Source of the DNA: a virus
Reading direction: 5' to 3' (one strand)
Length of the DNA stretch: 42,295 bases
Virus record (IMG/VR): IMGVR_UViG_3300047284_000300
Span: 1 to 42,295 of that record
The translations under genes were made by a program, and so were the position numbers. Shown here in pieces: positions 2,642-27,697 of this stretch (position 1 is the stretch's first letter; every line of letters starts with the position of its first letter). The notes under the pieces were generated by a model. It had not been told where the DNA came from and ran no database searches. It saw only the letters and a list, made by a program, of their open reading frames with translations.

Positions 2642-2712
2642 AGCCCCTATTCAGAATTGAACTGAACTCTGCTGCTTACAAAACAGCTGCATCACCACAA
2701 TGCTTTAGAGGC
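2642..2712 (-). tRNA. tRNA-Thr (TGT)
   Basis: A 71-nt cloverleaf: acceptor GCCTCTA/TAGGGGC, D arm GCAT-TGTGGTG-ATGC, anticodon arm GCTGT-TTTGTAA-GCAGC with anticodon TGT, T arm TTCAG-TTCAATT-CTGAA, discriminator T. CCA is not encoded. The 5' 21 nt are also the last six codons and the stop of the HNH gene. A GTTAA/TTAAC hairpin follows 2 nt after the 3' end. Confidence 0.95.
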
Positions 2713-3114
2713 ACATCTATGATAATCTTTCCTTGCTCGTTCTCTTCGTTGAACTCTACCACTGCCTTTATTCTTTGCCTTATATGTAGGAGTTTGAGAA
2801 TGACAGTTTGGACAGATAAACCTAAGATTTTCAGGAAGATTATTATAAGGGTTGCCATCAACGTGGTCAACCTCTAACGTGATTTGGTTATTGTTCCATT
2901 CACTTATCCCACAGCACGAACATTTATAACCGTGTGTTTCTGTGAGATATTCTCTCAAAGCAATTTTTCCAGGAAGTTTTCCTCCGTTTAACCACTCATC
3001 AATTCGTTGTTTCTTTTGAAACTCTTGTTGACAAGTGTTTGAGCAATATTTACCAGTTTTATTTGCTGGATTATATTTAAACTCAATAGAACAATTAGAA
3101 CACTTACCTAACAT
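2692..3114 (-). CDS. HNH homing-type endonuclease, 3' end inside tRNA-Thr
   Basis: A 140-aa protein with an N-terminal zinc finger (CSNC at 5-8, CSNTC at 24-28) followed by an HNH nuclease domain: CSCC near 65-68, the metal-binding DH at 83-84 in EVDHVDGNPYNN, the N of the fold near 91-92, and CPNCHSQ at 101-107. The tail is very basic (GRVQRRERARKDYHR), fitting DNA contact. Such freestanding HNH enzymes spread by cutting intron-less or endonuclease-less alleles. Residues 135-140 and the TGA stop are encoded by the first 21 nt of tRNA-Thr. A perfect TATAAATA late promoter lies upstream. Confidence 0.85.
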   Translation of the reverse strand: MLGKCSNCSIEFKYNPANKTGKYCSNTCQQEFQKKQRIDEWLNGGKLPGKIALREYLTETHGYKCSCCGISEWNNNQITLEVDHVDGNPYNNLPENLRFICPNCHSQTPTYKAKNKGSGRVQRRERARKDYHRCASKALW

Positions 3115-3131
3115 AGTAGACCTTTTTATTT

Positions 3132-3139
3132 TATTTATA
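3132..3139 (-). promoter_or_regulatory. T4-type late promoter before the HNH gene
   Basis: The minus strand reads TATAAATA 18-25 nt upstream of the HNH start codon. Transcription from here would pass through the HNH gene into tRNA-Thr. Confidence 0.6.
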
Positions 3140-3165
3140 GGGTCTACAACTGAGATACAGAGGCA

Positions 3166-3429
3166 CTAATCATTTGGCATATCTTCTGGATTTTCTAAAT
3201 CCACTGGAAATAAACAAGGATGACATTCTTCATCTATCAAATAGAATGAAGTTTTGTATAAATCTTCTGGACTATATTCTTGATTACTAGATGCTTCTAC
3301 TTGAATGTATGGATCTTCCTGTTGTTCTGGAGAAAGATCTTCAAATGTAAATGGAACATTGTTTATGAAATACATTTCGACAATTTCATTGTTGTAGAAA
3401 CAATATTTTGAGGAAATCTTGTATTTCAT
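3166..3429 (-). CDS. Small acidic hypothetical protein (87 aa)
   Basis: An 87-aa soluble, acidic protein (MKYKISSKYCFYNNEIVEMY), strand-rich in the N-terminal third, with a proline/glutamate-rich middle and the ending PVDLENPEDMPND. The upstream leader carries a small hairpin (TGTATC-CTTC-GATACA) just before the start codon and a CTAAATAAA motif that may act as a weak late promoter. No family is recognised. It lies between the HNH gene and tRNA-Asn. Confidence 0.6.
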   Translation of the reverse strand: MKYKISSKYCFYNNEIVEMYFINNVPFTFEDLSPEQQEDPYIQVEASSNQEYSPEDLYKTSFYLIDEECHPCLFPVDLENPEDMPND

Positions 3430-3463
3430 GTTTGTATCCTTCGATACATTTATTTAGTGGTAG

Positions 3464-3493
3464 GAGGGGGGAGCATCACCTTAAGCCCCCCTC
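3464..3493 (-). terminator. GC-rich hairpin between tRNA-Asn and the 87-aa gene
   Basis: GAGGGGGG and CCCCCCTC pair over 8 bp around a 14-nt loop. There is no T-run, so it may be an attenuator or processing site rather than a true terminator. The rest of 3430-3645 holds a 9-bp inverted pair (TGGTAGTTT/AAACTACCA, 29-nt loop) and a CTTAG/CTAAG hairpin near 3618-3635, but no gene or further tRNA that I can support. Confidence 0.45.
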
Positions 3494-3645
3494 TTTACTT
3501 CACTCAGCCACAGAATACTAGACCAAGGAGAGGTTTTGGTTCCTACGTGGTAGTTTGACCCTTTTTATCACCCCAGACTAAGGAAACTACCAAATGGCAT
3601 CTGGAGATCTTGGCGTCTACTTAGTTAATCGCTAAGGACTACCAA

Positions 3646-3717
3646 CTGGAGTGGCAGGGATCGAACCTGCGACAACTTGATTAACAGTCAAGCGTTCTAC
3701 CTCTGAACTACACTCCA
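3646..3717 (-). tRNA. tRNA-Asn (GTT)
   Basis: A 72-nt cloverleaf: acceptor TGGAGTG/CACTCCA, D stem GTTC/GAAC, anticodon arm CTTGA-CTGTTAA-TCAAG, T arm GCAGG-TTCGATC-CCTGC, discriminator G. All stems pair fully. CCA is not encoded. Confidence 0.97.
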
Positions 3718-3723
3718 ATAAAA

Positions 3724-3888
3724 TCAGTCTTCATCTAAAAGATATTCAACTGTGTTTGCAATGTCATTCATTGCTGTTCGTAAATCTGGTTGTTGTCCAG
3801 ATTCTTGTTTTAGTACTGGTCTTGAATTATCAGTCAGAGTCCATCTCCACTGATTCATATCTTTGCAATACCAAAGATTAATCTTCAT
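3724..3888 (-). CDS. Small hypothetical protein (54 aa)
   Basis: The ATG at 3888 (MKINLWYCKDMNQWRWTLTD) is preceded by GGAG and gives 54 residues; the longer open frame upstream is only the shadow of the next gene. Tryptophan/arginine-rich strands come first, followed by a C-terminal helix (TAMNDIANTVEYLLDED). It overlaps the 52-aa gene by 11 nt and ends 6 nt before tRNA-Asn, so the two small genes and the tRNA are probably one transcript. No family recognised. Confidence 0.65.
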   Translation of the reverse strand: MKINLWYCKDMNQWRWTLTDNSRPVLKQESGQQPDLRTAMNDIANTVEYLLDED

Positions 3889-4036
3889 GTTTAAAGTACT
3901 CCAAGTTAATCCAATTGAGTAACGTATTATAGGCATAGATAGCTGCCTCATTACAGTTATTCTTTTGCATATCTTGAATATAAAATTCAAGTGCTTCGAT
4001 AACCATTTCTCTATCTTTTTGAGAGATAAGTGACAT
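3878..4036 (-). CDS. Small helical hypothetical protein (52 aa)
   Basis: The frame is open to 4153, but upstream codons lie inside tRNA-Gly, and GAGG precedes the ATG at 4036, so 52 residues are chosen (MSLISQKDREMVIEALEFYI). The product looks like two helices with acidic, asparagine-rich turns. The GAGG ribosome-binding site is part of a CCTCA/TGAGG hairpin that follows the 3' end of tRNA-Gly, so tRNA processing and translation of this gene may be linked. No family recognised. Confidence 0.65.
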   Translation of the reverse strand: MSLISQKDREMVIEALEFYIQDMQKNNCNEAAIYAYNTLLNWINLEYFKHED

Positions 4037-4057
4037 AGTAACCTCAAATAGTGAGGA

Positions 4058-4128
4058 AGCGAATGACGGGGATCGAACCCGTGACACCAACTTGGAAGGA
4101 TGGGATGTTACCGCTACACCACATTCGC
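4058..4128 (-). tRNA. tRNA-Gly (TCC)
   Basis: A 71-nt cloverleaf: acceptor GCGAATG/CATTCGC, D stem GTGT/ACAT, anticodon arm CCATC-CTTCCAA-GTTGG (one T-T mismatch), T arm ACGGG-TTCGATC-CCCGT, discriminator T. CCA is not encoded. A CCTCA/TGAGG hairpin (4042-4056) follows after 1 nt. Confidence 0.95.
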
Positions 4129-4193
4129 AGCGACTCCTCTGTTTGAGCATCATCTGGCGTCCCAGGATAGGCTTGAGGAGTAGATGATTTTAT

Positions 4194-4460
4194 TTAGGTT
4201 GTAAAATTAATCTCTGGCTTTGGATTAATTGCTCCAAAAGTAATTATATCATCGTAGTTGGATGCAAAAGGAATACCTTCTACGTTGAAATCTTTCTTTG
4301 GAGTCTGCGCTCTGTTCATGATAATGATGTAACCTAGCTTTTGTAAAGCTTCTGCAATAGAATGAAGAGTATAAGGATCTTCATGCATTGCACCTAGTTC
4401 AAGTGCAGAACGAAGTGCCTGTTCAGCTTTTTCAATTTGATACTTAACCGATTCTCCCAT
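4194..4460 (-). CDS. Hypothetical protein (88 aa)
   Basis: An 88-aa soluble protein (MGESVKYQIEKAEQALRSAL). Residues 5-45 form a helical hairpin (AEQALRSALELGAM, YTLHSIAEALQKLGYIII), followed by a strand-like tail ending in KPEINFTT. It lies between tRNA-Ala and tRNA-Gly, on the same strand. The stop codon is part of a CTAAATA sequence that resembles a weak late promoter for the downstream tRNA-Gly group. No named domain recognised. Confidence 0.65.
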   Translation of the reverse strand: MGESVKYQIEKAEQALRSALELGAMHEDPYTLHSIAEALQKLGYIIIMNRAQTPKKDFNVEGIPFASNYDDIITFGAINPKPEINFTT

Positions 4461-4481
4461 AAAAAAATAATATAGTGGGAA

Positions 4482-4554
4482 TGGAGAATAGCGGACTTGA
4501 ACCGCTGACTTATAGCTTGCAAAGCTATCACTCTACCAACTGAGTTAATTCCCC
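4482..4554 (-). tRNA. tRNA-Ala (TGC)
   Basis: A 73-nt cloverleaf: acceptor GGGGAAT/ATTCTCC (one G-U), D stem ACTC/GAGT, anticodon arm ATAGC-TTTGCAA-GCTAT, T arm AGCGG-TTCAAGT-CCGCT, discriminator A. CCA is not encoded. Confidence 0.97.
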
Positions 4555-4703
4555 AGATGGATTAGGTGTGAATACCCCCGAATATTTCCAGTAGTATACA
4601 GGGACCTAACCTCTATCCGTATGCTGACTTTGCAGTTCAACGTCAAACTAGTAAACTAATCAACGGCGATTGTAGTCTGTGTTGAATAATATACTAGTGG
4701 TCT

Positions 4704-4734
4704 TTACCGTCAGAAAAAGTTCTGGTAACGGTAA
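4704..4734 (-). other. Hairpin next to the 3' end of tRNA-Pro
   Basis: TTACCGT pairs with ACGGTAA (7 bp) and, inside it, CAGAA with TTCTG (5 bp) around AAAG, with a 3-nt bulge. It begins 1 nt after the tRNA-Pro 3' end and has no T-run. The rest of the 4555-4735 spacer holds no gene that I can support. Confidence 0.55.
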
Positions 4735-4735
4735 G

Positions 4736-4809
4736 TCGGAATGATAGGATTTGAACCTACGGCATCTCGCTCCCAAAGCGAGTGCTCTACCAAACTGAGC
4801 TACATTCCG
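4736..4809 (-). tRNA. tRNA-Pro (TGG)
   Basis: A 74-nt cloverleaf: acceptor CGGAATG/CATTCCG, D stem GCTC/GAGC, anticodon arm CTCGC-TTTGGGA-GCGAG, T arm GTAGG-TTCAAAT-CCTAT, discriminator A. The C at position 1 is unusual outside initiator tRNA but pairs with G72. CCA is not encoded. Confidence 0.96.
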
Positions 4810-5018
4810 AGGTGAGTGATGGGAATCTGTCATACCCACAACCTGGATGGTTACACTGACAACCGTATTTCCAGGAACCTAGATTCTTCTTGGTCGGAAG
4901 TTCTATACCTTTGATTTCTCAATGATACAGCGGGCACCACCCCTAATCTATTACATTATCCCGTGAGTAACCACAAGGATTGTTCTGTCACACTCTTTGG
5001 AAACCCGTCGATTTCCAA
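4810..5018 (-). other. Structured non-coding spacer between tRNA-Ile and tRNA-Pro
   Basis: These 209 nt hold no open frame of note and no further cloverleaf. They contain a TTGGAAA/TTTCCAA hairpin (4997-5018) touching the 3' end of tRNA-Ile, and a CCTGGA...TCCAGG arrangement enclosing GGTT/AACC near 4843-4876. They could be tRNA-processing signals, decayed tRNAs or small RNAs. Confidence 0.4.
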
Positions 5019-5089
5019 TAGGAATACTGGGAATCGAACCCAGACCAACCCGTTATAAGCAGGCCGCTCTACCGTTAAGCTATACTCCC
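5019..5089 (-). tRNA. tRNA-Ile (TAT)
   Basis: A 71-nt cloverleaf: acceptor GGGAGTA/TATTCCT (G-U at pairs 1 and 5), D stem GCTT/GAGC, anticodon arm GCCTG-CTTATAA-CGGGT, T arm CTGGG-TTCGATT-CCCAG, discriminator A. Anticodon TAT reads AUA directly, unlike the modified CAT tRNA used by most bacteria, which suits an AT-rich phage. CCA is not encoded. Confidence 0.93.
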
Positions 5090-5098
5090 TAGACTAAA

Positions 5099-5353
5099 TT
5101 AACGAACTTCGTAATCTAGTCTACGTATTCGTCTCTTGGGAACATCTAACTGTTCAAAAGACTTTTGTTTTTCTTTTGGTTTTGTAAACCCACTTACCAT
5201 TTCAACTCGGCTCATGTCTTCAGCTATTATAACAGGTAATCCATTGTTGTCAAGTCTCATGTAAGCTCTATTAGGACACTTACAAGACTGTCCACGATTT
5301 GGTTGAGTTACTTGCAACTCCATGTTGCAATCTTTACATCTGATTTTGTACAT
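5099..5353 (-). CDS. Small zinc-ribbon-like protein (84 aa)
   Basis: An 84-aa protein starting MYKIRCKDCNMELQVTQPNR. CKDC (6-9) and CKC (24-26) form a likely zinc-binding pair of knuckles at the N-terminus; the rest is strand-rich and then basic, ending in KRRIRRLDYEVR. This suggests a small nucleic-acid-binding protein. It lies between tRNA-Ile and tRNA-Arg and is probably transcribed with them from the strong promoter at 5515-5543. No exact family recognised. Confidence 0.65.
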   Translation of the reverse strand: MYKIRCKDCNMELQVTQPNRGQSCKCPNRAYMRLDNNGLPVIIAEDMSRVEMVSGFTKPKEKQKSFEQLDVPKRRIRRLDYEVR

Positions 5354-5382
5354 TGATTCATACCTTAATTATTCAGTTGTCA

Positions 5383-5456
5383 CGACTCAGGAGGGACTTG
5401 AACCCCCGACCAACTGCTTAGAAGGCAGATGCTCTATCCAACTGAGCTACTGAGTC
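5383..5456 (-). tRNA. tRNA-Arg (TCT)
   Basis: A 74-nt cloverleaf: acceptor GACTCAG/CTGAGTC, D stem GCTC/GAGC, anticodon arm TCTGC-CTTCTAA-GCAGT, T arm GGGGG-TTCAAGT-CCCTC, discriminator G. It would read AGA/AGG codons, common in AT-rich phage genes. The leader between its promoter and the tRNA has a GGGTAG/CTACCC hairpin. Confidence 0.96.
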
Positions 5457-5514
5457 AGGTGAGGGGTAGGATTTACGCAGAGTTTGGACCCCTGCTACCC
5501 GTGCCCTCAATATT

Positions 5515-5543
5515 ATTATAGCACTATTGAGTGCAGTTGTCAA
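5515..5543 (-). promoter_or_regulatory. Consensus sigma70 promoter for the tRNA group
   Basis: Minus strand TTGACA (5538-5543), 17 nt, TATAAT (5515-5520): both boxes are perfect. It overlaps the last codons of the 128-aa membrane protein gene and points at tRNA-Arg and the genes behind it. Confidence 0.9.
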
Positions 5544-5910
5544 CCCATGGAGCACAGAGTCGGATTTCTCCTCCTAGTGCTTGACACTCATCAGTATAGC
5601 ACACGGAGGTGTCAACTGGTTTTTCTGAGCGTCGTGGTGATGGTATCGTAGCACGTCCATCGTCGCCTGTCAAGTCCTCATAATCTTTGATTGCTTTATC
5701 GACATCTCTCTCGATTCTTCTCTTGAGAAGCTTGTCGTCTTTTATTATATAGTCGTTTAATTCGGTGTTTGGAAAATACTTTCTCTGAACTTCATCAATC
5801 AGGTCATACCAATGGATCTCATCAATGCCTGTACATTTTGTAAGTAAACCTACAGTTGAAGTAAGTATAACCCCTATGATTGCAAAATTTATAACTTGCT
5901 TTTTATTCAT
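5524..5910 (-). CDS. Membrane-anchored hypothetical protein (128 aa)
   Basis: Starting at ATG 5910 (MNKKQVINFAIIGVILTSTV), it has one N-terminal membrane segment (about residues 7-25) followed by a charged soluble domain, presumably periplasmic, with a C-terminal set of four cysteines (VCYTDECQ, RLCAPWVDNCTQ) that could form disulphides. The sequence around LLTKC is near a lipobox but does not fit it well. It follows the RlpA-like gene on the same strand. A spanin-like or lysis role is possible from position and topology, but nothing proves it. The 3' end contains the promoter of the tRNA group. Confidence 0.6.
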   Translation of the reverse strand: MNKKQVINFAIIGVILTSTVGLLTKCTGIDEIHWYDLIDEVQRKYFPNTELNDYIIKDDKLLKRRIERDVDKAIKDYEDLTGDDGRATIPSPRRSEKPVDTSVCYTDECQALGGEIRLCAPWVDNCTQ

Positions 5911-5916
5911 GAGGAA

Positions 5917-5946
5917 GGGGAGAATCAAGTCTCCCCATTATTTATC
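5917..5946 (-). promoter_or_regulatory. Late-type motif and hairpin before the membrane protein gene
   Basis: The minus strand reads GATAAATA (5939-5946), a NATAAATA late-promoter match at the end of the RlpA-like gene, followed by a 7-bp hairpin GGGGAGA-loop-TCTCCCC (5917-5936) that ends 6 nt before the start codon. No clear ribosome-binding site is visible. Confidence 0.5.
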
Positions 5947-5948
5947 TG

Positions 5949-6311
5949 TTAGACTCTAGAATAACAGACACTAGCCACTCCCTGTCCTGGGTGTGCAATA
6001 GTAGAGAATGCCCCGTAGGACAGGTCGAGGTCTCGTCCTCCGACATATGGACCTCTATCATTCACTCGCACAATAACTGTTCTTCCATTTCGTTGATTTG
6101 TCACTCGTAACCTAGTTCCAAATGGAAGCCATTTATGTGCGACAGTTCGACCATATGCATTATAAGTTTCACCATTTGCGGTGGTTTGGCCGTGATATCC
6201 ATCACCTACACCATAATGTGATGCCAGGGAACATCCGCTGGCTGCCTCAGCTTTTTGGGGCGTAAATCCAAGAAGTGTTGAAGCAATGAGAAGTGTTGAA
6301 ATAAAACGCAT
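5949..6311 (-). CDS. RlpA-like double-psi beta-barrel protein (putative lytic transglycosylase)
   Basis: A 120-aa secreted protein: a signal peptide (residues 1-22, cleavage after AEA) and a single RlpA-type double-psi beta-barrel covering the rest. The residues matching the active site of RlpA lytic transglycosylases are present: E48 in TANGE, H59 in TVAHKWLPFGT, D85 in RVNDRGPY, and the DLSYGAF motif near 96-102. RlpA cleaves naked glycan strands at bacterial septa in the periplasm. There is no SPOR domain and no lipobox, so this is a minimal soluble form. Neighbours are tRNA-Tyr upstream and a membrane-anchored protein downstream, so a wall-related or lysis function is plausible. Confidence 0.85.
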   Translation of the reverse strand: MRFISTLLIASTLLGFTPQKAEAASGCSLASHYGVGDGYHGQTTANGETYNAYGRTVAHKWLPFGTRLRVTNQRNGRTVIVRVNDRGPYVGGRDLDLSYGAFSTIAHPGQGVASVCYSRV

Positions 6312-6432
6312 TTAAATTAATAGAACTCTACATCCCAATAGAAGGGGGGTACACCACACCTCTCGGTGGGCACCTTCCTGGGCACAAAATGACAACAACT
6401 CAATCGCTTATAATATAAATTGGTGTTGTCAA
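6312..6432 (-). other. Leader of the RlpA-like gene, structured
   Basis: The spacer between tRNA-Tyr and the RlpA-like gene holds a small hairpin with a GAGA tetraloop (CACC-GAGA-GGTG), GC-rich runs, and next to the tRNA end a TTGACA box with TATAAG only 14 nt away, too close for a convincing promoter. No gene is seen. Confidence 0.35.
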
Positions 6433-6514
6433 TGGGCAGGGCAGGATTTGAACCTGCGAAGGCAGAGCCGTCTGATTTACAGTCAGATTCCTTTAACCAC
6501 TCGGAAACCTACCC
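6433..6514 (-). tRNA. tRNA-Tyr (GTA)
   Basis: An 82-nt class II tRNA: acceptor GGGTAGG/CCTGCCC (one G-U), 3-bp D stem, anticodon arm TCTGA-CTGTAAA-TCAGA, a 13-nt variable arm, T arm GCAGG-TTCAAAT-CCTGC, discriminator A. CCA is not encoded. Confidence 0.96.
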
Positions 6515-26925: not shown

Positions 26926-27252
26926 ATGCTCTCTACAAATTACAGACTTAAATTGCAATCAATTTGTGACAATATCGTGCAAGGAAATGAAGTGTCTTTG
27001 CAAGATATTATATGGGCAGAAAAACTTGCAAAAGCGAATCGCACAGCAGGCACGATGCTTCGTCAAGCAAGAAGGAAAGCAGAAAATCCACATATGCAAG
27101 AAGGAGATATGGATGATTTTTTAAATCAACTTGACATTGGAGGATTGGGCAATGAAAGATTTGGCAAATCTGGATTTGATAGTGTAGATGATATTGTAGA
27201 TTTTTTCAGTGAAGGTAGGGACAAACCAGAAGACTGGAGACAAAGAGATTAA
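26926..27252 (+). CDS. Plus-strand hypothetical protein (108 aa)
   Basis: A soluble protein (MLSTNYRLKLQSICDNIVQG) with a helical basic first half (DIIWAEKLAKANRTAGTMLRQARRKAEN) and an acidic, glycine-containing second half (DDFLNQLDIGGLGNERFGKS, DDIVDFFSEGRDKPED). I remember similar proteins in T4-like cyanophages but no function. It is the only conventional-size gene on the plus strand, with a late-type motif ahead of it. Nothing in the sequence shows a catalytic site. Confidence 0.72.
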   Translation: MLSTNYRLKLQSICDNIVQGNEVSLQDIIWAEKLAKANRTAGTMLRQARRKAENPHMQEGDMDDFLNQLDIGGLGNERFGKSGFDSVDDIVDFFSEGRDKPEDWRQRD

Positions 27253-27293
27253 ACTGTATCAAAAGTTACAATTTTAATTGCCTATATATTAAT

Positions 27294-27351
27294 ACGTTCA
27301 TCTGCTATTTGCGAATAGCGAATGCAGACGGAAGTAAGCCGACTCGGAACG
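27294..27351 (+). ncRNA. Glutamine-riboswitch-like aptamer, copy 1
   Basis: P1 pairs CGTTC (27295-27299) with GAACG (27347-27351). Inside are ATC, a CTGC/GCAG stem with an inner TATT/AATA extension, then GACGGAAGTA (27327-27336) and AGCCGACT. The arrangement CGTTCATC-stem-GACGGAAGTA...GGAACG matches the cyanobacterial glnA-type glutamine aptamer as I remember it. Confidence 0.75.
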
Positions 27352-27354
27352 GAT

Positions 27355-27395
27355 CGTTCATCCCACATGGGACGCAAAAGCCGACTGAAGGAACG
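27355..27395 (+). ncRNA. Glutamine-riboswitch-like aptamer, copy 2 (Downstream-peptide type)
   Basis: P1 pairs CGTTC (27355-27359) with GAACG (27391-27395). The inner stem is CCCA/TGGG with a 2-nt loop, followed by GACGCAAAAGCCGACT and GAAGGAACGC. This is the layout of the Downstream-peptide (glutamine-II) RNA known from marine cyanobacteria and their phages, upstream of short open frames, and one follows here 31 nt later. Confidence 0.82.
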
Positions 27396-27426
27396 CTCTT
27401 TAACATAACACTTAAGGAGAACCCTA

Positions 27427-27585
27427 ATGTCACAAGCAACCTATCGTGGTTGTCAGTATAATACTGACACCCCTAAGCAAGAATATCAGCGTTGGTATTC
27501 CCAAACACATGCACCAGCACATCCACAAAATACTTATCGTGGCGTTGCCTACCGTCCTTGCAAAAATCAGGAGGTAGCAAAATGA
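27427..27585 (+). CDS. Riboswitch-controlled DUF4278-like small protein (52 aa)
   Basis: AAGGAG precedes the ATG at 27427. The 52-aa product (MSQATYRGCQYNTDTPKQEY) carries the motif TYRG-x-x-Y twice (residues 5-11 and 37-42: NTYRGVAYRP), the hallmark of cyanobacterial DUF4278 proteins. It is basic and soluble. It lies directly behind the tandem aptamers, so expression should follow glutamine level, as for the short proteins and glutamine-synthetase inhibitors under these riboswitches in the hosts. The ATGA overlap links it to the next 28-aa gene. Function is unknown; an effect on host nitrogen metabolism is inference. Confidence 0.8.
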   Translation: MSQATYRGCQYNTDTPKQEYQRWYSQTHAPAHPQNTYRGVAYRPCKNQEVAK

Positions 27586-27668
27586 ACTGGTTGAATGTAA
27601 TCCGTAAACAAATTCAAAAACAGAAGAGACTCCAGGAAGCACAATATTATATTGCAACTCTTGGATAA
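27582..27668 (+). CDS. Micropeptide (28 aa)
   Basis: A 28-codon frame (MNWLNVIRKQIQKQKRLQEA, then QYYIATLG) with AGGAGG at good spacing and an ATGA overlap with the 52-aa gene. It is a single basic amphipathic helix. Being between a coupled start and a terminator, it is very probably translated. It belongs to the riboswitch unit; no family can be named at this size. Confidence 0.65.
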   Translation: MNWLNVIRKQIQKQKRLQEAQYYIATLG

Positions 27669-27675
27669 AAAGAAA

Positions 27676-27697
27676 GGGGGCACATAGCCCCCTTTTT
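27676..27697. terminator. Bidirectional terminator
   Basis: GGGGGC/GCCCCC (6 bp, 5-nt loop) followed by TTTTT on the plus strand; the reverse strand reads the same stem followed by TTTCTTTTT. It closes the riboswitch unit and the convergent regA operon. Confidence 0.92.

Follow-up and report, generated by a model that had tools for sequence, protein, structure and literature searches.

A probable nested double glutamine aptamer ahead of two miniprotein genes in cyanophage genomes

Features of the locus

The window, i.e., the whole stretch of 42,295 nucleotides of IMG/VR record IMGVR_UViG_3300047284_000300, carries on its + strand two repeat units (27295–27351 and 27353–27399), each built as CGTTCATC...AGCCGACT...GGAACG, followed by a 52-aa ORF (27427–27585), a 28-aa ORF coupled to it through an ATGA overlap (27582–27668) and an intrinsic terminator of 11 pairs recovered by a terminator scan (27671–27697). 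All these features had been recognized in the initial annotation, and the repetition is beyond chance, the pair of units recurring in hundreds of cyanophage records. The block forms an isolated + strand island within a mostly – strand replication region, with Hsp20 on one flank and a RegA-type repressor and the clamp loader on the other. A candidate –10 element, TATATT (27285–27290, +), lies directly 5' of the repeats. Among relatives of the element, a TATAAT-like box ends 7–10 nt 5' of the aptamer in 231 of 352 distinct upstream sequences, so that a small phage transcript probably starts with the aptamer, the window's own box being a weaker match that the promoter scan did not detect.

Just upstream, on the same strand, lies a 108-aa ORF (26926–27252, +) of the uncharacterized family phrog_507, and DNA similar to this region occurs in many cyanophages. 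Elsewhere, the window holds a wcaG RNA (1180–1284, –) and a manA RNA (4809–5017, –; 108 bits), together with eight clustered tRNAs (2642–6514, –).

That the repeats belong to the glutamine-aptamer family was borne out by unit 2, which on its own scores 38.9 bits against RF01739 (Glutamine) and passes the gathering threshold of 35, whereas unit 1 on its own (23.0 bits, E 0.013) fails it. Against RF01704 (glutamine-II), unit 2 reaches 19.1 bits and relatives up to 28.8 bits, all below the gathering threshold of 33. Finally, a model of the nested structure described below (R1) scores the window at 87.4 bits, the window being one of the model's own sequences.

Pairing across the two repeat units

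Relatives were collected from IMG/VR using four patterns, plus one pattern leaving the inner part unspecified, and 434 loci, almost all of cyanophage origin, were parsed. The positions called 23 and 60 follow the numbering of this analysis; the long-range pair adjoining the glutamine ligand site has been described without those numbers (PMC6698751). Across copies, 23(1):60(2) is a standard pair in 434 of 434 loci (C-G 317, G-C 117), while within-copy pairing is found in only 321 and 319 of them. In the window, as in S-CREM1 and DSL-LC03, the two positions oppose G.G inside copy 1 and C.C inside copy 2, whereas the partners across copies are G-C and C-G; here, G23(1) at 27331 faces C60(2) at 27396 (+). 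Loop E is divided in the same way, since copy 1 has the AGUA strand (27333–27336, +) and lacks GAA, while copy 2 has GAA (27387–27389, +) and lacks AGUA. A glutamine-I three-way junction, comprising P3 and an AGUA/GAA loop E, can be formed only across copies, loop E being assigned from the sequence.

The two AGCCGACT repeats, (1) and (2), pair with each other as P3, i.e., AGCCGACU at 27337–27344 with AGCCGACU at 27379–27386 (+), and compensatory changes are seen in relatives. In AGCCGACU-like repeats, the last pair is T-A, G-C or A-T and the first A-T, G-C or G-T; short versions are fully complementary (e.g., AGTCG/CGACT), and the 8-pair version has two conserved mismatches (C.A at pair 3 and A.C at pair 6). 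The G-U pairs of P3 speak for a + strand RNA rather than for a repeat at the DNA level.

When 68 distinct ORF-less elements were aligned, 13 pairs of the nested structure had changed on both sides, with 23(1):60(2) paired in 100% (CG 48, GC 20) and the last P3 pair likewise in 100% (GC 21, UA 21, AU 8). For the tandem structure, the diagnostic helices fall to 72%, 66% and 65–70% in the same elements, and its covariation comes mostly from the P2 hairpins, which both structures share. A tree of the downstream protein was used to examine independence: for the P3 pair it gave 9 supported independent comparisons, all of which switched concordantly (p 0.004), while 23(1) and 60(2) each changed 16 times, with only 2 comparisons on supported branches. 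The outer helix P1 (CGUUC at 27295–27299 with 27391–27395, +) forms between the copies but, because the P1 strands (CGUUC/GAACG) are invariant in the alignment, as are their conserved flanks, P1 cannot discriminate between the nested and the tandem structure; the inner P1 strands were moreover required by most search patterns. Thermodynamic folding was discarded as an arbiter: the energies (nested –24.9, tandem –27.8, free MFE –31.0 kcal/mol) do not prefer the nested fold and are uninformative; the nearest-neighbour model leaves out loop E, the 23:60 pairs and the ligand, and the case is a comparative one.

As both the diagnostic pairs and P3 run across the copies, we conclude that one aptamer is nested in the other. 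On this comparative evidence, the outer unit is a canonical glutamine-I aptamer, with its 5' half in copy 1, including a P2 hairpin (27301–27328, +) supported by covariation and by the ORFs found in the loops of relatives, and its 3' half in copy 2 (loop-E GAA, GGAACG and C60(2) at 27387–27396, +), recognized by both Rfam and R1. As the covarying pairs show, its P3 carries as a cap another glutamine core, in circularly permuted order. Two complete aptamers standing head to tail, as proposed initially, are at odds with the failure of the within-copy diagnostic pairs and with the splitting of the loop-E strands between copies.

The inner core

The inner core combines the 3' part of copy 1 with the 5' part of copy 2 and runs GGAACG, nt 60, two or more additional linker nucleotides, CGUUCA, P2, CG and nt 23, without loop E. 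In the window, GGAACG and nt 60(1) occupy 27346–27352, CGUUC lies at 27355–27359 (partner 27347–27351), the P2 hairpin UCCC-ACAU-GGGA at 27361–27372 and C23(2) at 27375, facing G60(1) at 27352 (all +). GGAACG precedes its CGUUC partner, and the loop between them is never shorter than 3 nt. The 60(1):23(2) pair is G-C in 358, C-G in 20 and A-T in 8 of the 434 loci, and non-standard in 45, mostly as A.C or U.C within one group. Inner GGAACG, CGUUCA and CG22 equal their outer counterparts in invariance. Besides, every distinct segment retrieved by the outer-only pattern, newly gained loci included, has an exact GGAACG...CGTTCA, so that the inner core proves conserved even where the search did not ask for it.

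The cross-copy fold also accounts for the seemingly mixed cores GACGGAAGTA and GACGCAAAAGCC, since an outer glutamine-I core is here combined with a permuted inner one: their letters are as originally described, but the difference does not stem from a mixture of types I and II.

Many elements use the hairpin TTCGCTATTTGCGAATAGCGAA (27304–27319) as the P2 of one core or the other, and a matching piece of 25 nt is found between the tRNA-Ala and tRNA-Asn genes of S-RIM50; it is perhaps a mobile hairpin.

Genes within the aptamer loops

More than half of the parsed loci carry a gene of 49–75 aa within one or both P2 loops. Among the 434 loci, the insert is inner only in 163, outer only in 43 and present in both loops in 29, while the window, of the gene-less form, is one of the 199 loci without any P2 insert. 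Overall, the inner P2 loop bears a nested ORF in 192 of 434 relatives, and the outer one an insert in 72 of 434, nearly always an ORF of 59–75 aa. The first 167 inner inserts examined all have an ORF whose ATG is no more than a few bases away from the foot of P2, and in 157 of these 167 the stop falls exactly at the loop-E T(G/A)A. A later parsing raised the distinct ORFs to 169 for the inner and 63 for the outer loop; their ATG overlaps P2 in 169 of 188 inner and 66 of 71 outer cases. Substitutions concentrate at third codon positions, both in inner ORFs (2467 vs. 1223 and 542 at the other two) and in outer ORFs (1377 vs. 612 and 400).

Each of the 232 distinct nested proteins counted contains exactly two cysteines, and the N-terminus is hydrophobic in those that were read. 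The proteins fall into phrog_504 and phrog_6471, both uncharacterized families, with one outer family lacking a match. In P-SSM4, the nested ORFs are annotated as hypothetical proteins (T4-GC 429 and 430) and are followed by the YRG protein (431). The leader of DSL-LC03 is a near twin of the window's leader in which the inner ORF is present. On the tree of the downstream protein, which is short and noisy, the inner ORF shows 53 state changes and the outer one 33, and P2 inserts look to be frequently gained or lost.

The downstream miniproteins

The 52-aa protein (27427–27585, +) has two YRG motifs and belongs to phrog_5049 (E 6e-10). Its previously noted likeness to DUF4278 is seen in a match to PF14105 (22.8 bits, E 1.2e-4) that stays below the curated cut-off of 25.3. 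YRG is found in 334 of the 339 downstream ORFs of relatives, nearly always twice, and the two motifs do not vary in an alignment of the phage family, for which proteins with two YRG had been selected. The 28-aa peptide (27582–27668, +) belongs to phrog_545 (E 2e-6), the match covering its NWL-helix part, and in S-CREM1 and Bellamy a single ORF fuses NWL/IRxQI and YRG modules of a similar kind. For the 52-aa protein, AlphaFold predicts two strand pairs and a helix (mean pLDDT 76); predictions for the YRG and inner-ORF proteins are of moderate confidence and uninformative as to function.

The glutamine synthetase inactivating factor IF17 has a C-terminal, IF7-like inhibitory part. Pfam returned no match for either miniprotein besides DUF4278, and no IF7-like part, a missing profile match being weak evidence. 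Searches of the miniproteins and nested ORFs by Pfam, PHROGs, PDB sequence and fold returned no function. We only hypothesize that the YRG miniprotein could act on glutamine synthetase; it is predicted to be host-like and nitrogen-linked, with release at high glutamine as its predicted job.

The expression platform

C60(2) is also the first base of a putative anti-Shine-Dalgarno strand (CUCUUUAA, 27396–27403, +), complementary to the Shine-Dalgarno sequence of the 52-aa ORF (UUAAGGAG, 27412–27419, +). In 76 of 85 C60-type leaders, C60 opens a helix of 7–9 bp over the Shine-Dalgarno sequence, to be compared with about 0.6% of shuffled controls reaching at least 7 bp. Single glutamine-I switches of hosts have the same layout, CGCCTC...GAGGCG preceding the starts of YRG genes. 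More generally, the platform of these switches in cyanobacterial genomes is compact (GGAACG-CGCCTC...GAGGCG-AUG) and usually associated with a YRG gene.

The overlap of C60 with the helix amounts to one nucleotide and, with C60 blocked in silico, the Shine-Dalgarno sequence stays mostly paired, so that release is partial in simulation; the direction of the switch is consequently argued by analogy. A search for an anti-Shine-Dalgarno helix in G60-type leaders gave no clear counterpart, and a scan for an intrinsic terminator between aptamer and ORF found none. Type 1 and type 2 glutamine riboswitches precede DUF4278 genes, and glutamine activates expression through both (PMC6316151), from which we infer a translational glutamine-ON switch for the double-YRG (DUF4278-like) miniprotein.

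Distribution in phages and hosts

A 74-nt query from the window matched 400 GenBank records, tallied under Synechococcus, Cyanophage, Prochlorococcus and Marine virus only; about half of these matches cover at least 80% of the query, the weaker ones being provisional. The nested element is found in many GenBank cyanomyoviruses, including S-PM2, P-SSM2, P-SSM4 and P-HM1. When 84,980 bacterial and archaeal species were scanned for the exact pattern, 11 matches emerged. Two are contigs of Prochlorococcus single-cell genomes, one of them identical in length (189,106 bases) to an IMG/VR virus contig, and one is a 5.3 kb contig that was binned into a marine Dehalococcoidia MAG but, while its nested element is good (88.6 bits), probably strayed there from a cyanophage; the remaining ones are taken for chance. 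Model R1, run against 300 genomes from the same family as one of the Prochlorococcus records, recovered only that contig and one single aptamer. Neither the species scan nor the R1 search located the nested element in a host chromosome. In the same class, RF01739 matches occur in 172 of 291 genomes, and the host loci inspected, some 40 in number, each hold a single aptamer with an ordinary P3, AGUA and GAA being placed around it.

Proposed mechanism and alternatives

We regard it as likely that 27295–27396 is a nested double glutamine aptamer leader and a glutamine-ON switch for the double-YRG miniprotein and the 28-aa peptide. The leader would form the 5' end of a small phage transcript and fold as the nested double aptamer; L-glutamine would bind at the outer and probably also at the inner site. 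Binding would lock P1 and the G23-C60 pair, thereby withdrawing C60 from the anti-Shine-Dalgarno helix CUCUUUAA/UUAAGGAG, so that the miniprotein and the coupled peptide would be translated at high glutamine. The shared P3 would couple both sites, and the response could be steeper. Of the tandem sensor initially suggested for the two miniproteins, the two cores, the control of miniproteins and the phage context are retained, the tandem arrangement being given up.

A true tandem, in which two independent glutamine-I aptamers with a P1 of their own would give a more digital response, could appeal to the presence of CGUUCA...GGAACG in each copy, to copy 2 passing RF01739 by itself, to earlier reports of tandem glnA RNAs (PMC2864571) and to a slightly better RNAfold energy than that of the nested fold. 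Yet, its 23:60 pairs fail in about a quarter of the loci, whereas the cross-copy pair never does, the loop-E strands are divided between the copies and the covariation of P3 runs across them; as a fold, the tandem is ruled out by covariation, and we deem it highly improbable. Even less credit can be given to a mixture of types, in which copy 2 would be a Downstream-peptide (glutamine-II) aptamer, as originally annotated. This idea draws on the CGCA core of copy 2 and on the weak RF01704 matches, but these stay below the gathering threshold both here and in relatives, the glutamine-II order CGUUCA...P2...GGAACGG with its pseudoknot (PMC6698751) is absent, and most phages have CGC in copy 1 as well, which deprives it of any value as a mark of type; as stated, the assignment is refuted by score and strand order. 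If the nested fold is real, the outer site might nevertheless bind glutamine alone, the inner core then being a structural cap, as the relaxed inner 60:23 pair of some phages and the lack of an inner loop E would allow. On balance, we lean against this alternative while considering it a serious one, given that the inner GGAACG, CGUUCA and CG22 are as invariant as the outer ones, even in loci where they were not demanded.

With the nested fold retained, control could still be glutamine-OFF, or independent of translation (RNA stability or termination), a view to which the one-nucleotide overlap between aptamer and anti-Shine-Dalgarno helix and the G60-type leaders devoid of a clear helix lend some weight. 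It appears unlikely in view of the ON behaviour of host switches of the same layout (PMC6316151), of the helix present in 76 of 85 C60 leaders and of the terminator scan, which found none between aptamer and ORF. As an extension of the glutamine-ON reading, we tentatively offer, with more doubt than confidence, that in T4-like cyanophages the nested permuted double aptamer may be a two-output switch, where glutamine would silence the nested gene and open the YRG gene, while translation of the nested gene would dismantle the sensor. In ORF-bearing relatives, the nested start codon lies in an aptamer helix and the stop codon of the inner ORF in loop E, and the nested proteins, with their two cysteines and hydrophobic N-terminus, might perhaps be exported. 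If true, placing a gene within an aptamer that binds a ligand would constitute a novel arrangement.

Comparison with known systems

Glutamine riboswitches in phages, their link to DUF4278 and "tandem" glnA RNAs are already known: tandem glnA RNAs were reported by Weinberg 2010 (PMC2864571), and the glnA RNA is known in S-CREM1 and other phages (PMC9004378). In the literature searched, which did not extend to Ames 2011 and Klaehn 2018, neither the nested fold nor the permutation nor ORFs inside the aptamer were found to be reported, and their novelty is provisional. If upheld, the "tandem" glutamine riboswitches of cyanophages would become one interlocked two-site RNA and would supply a natural circularly permuted aptamer; protein genes inside aptamer loops have also come to light in many cyanomyoviruses. 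With matches in hundreds of phage records, among them the standard laboratory phages S-PM2, P-SSM2, P-SSM4 and P-HM1, the role of glutamine sensing in infection is directly testable.

In S-CREM1, a single glnA riboswitch of 99 nt (44.0 bits) has been annotated with coordinates covering both units; this element is homologous to that of the window and similarly placed, between Hsp20 and the translation repressor RegA, and the accessible part of its description mentions neither nesting nor permutation nor a loop ORF (PMC9964418). The outer core resembles glutamine-I aptamers (RF01739; cyanobacteria, e.g., the gifB leader) in CGUUCA, P2, the ACGGAAGUA loop E, GAAGGAACG and G23-C60, and host switches of this type also share the C60-first anti-Shine-Dalgarno helix and the downstream YRG/DUF4278 gene. 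In contrast, the P3 of the phage element carries a second, permuted core instead of a short hairpin, and its relatives bear ORFs within P2. The inner core is akin to glutamine-II (RF01704) in CGUUCA, in CGC with a C-G long-range pair, in GGAACGG and in the absence of loop E, and short downstream ORFs are common to both. However, the glutamine-II order CGUUCA-P1-CGC-P2-GGAACGG is circularly permuted here to GGAACGG-CGUUCA-P2-CGC, without the pseudoknot and below the Rfam threshold. Tandem riboswitches (glycine; tandem glnA, PMC2864571) likewise place two ligand cores before one gene, but the phage cores are interleaved around a shared P3 rather than consecutive. Finally, the B12 and Mbox leaders of M. 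tuberculosis also link a small ORF to a riboswitch (PMC11260477, PMC12810186); the ORF of the cyanophage relatives differs in lying inside an aptamer helix, where it starts in P2 and, if it is the inner one, stops in loop E.
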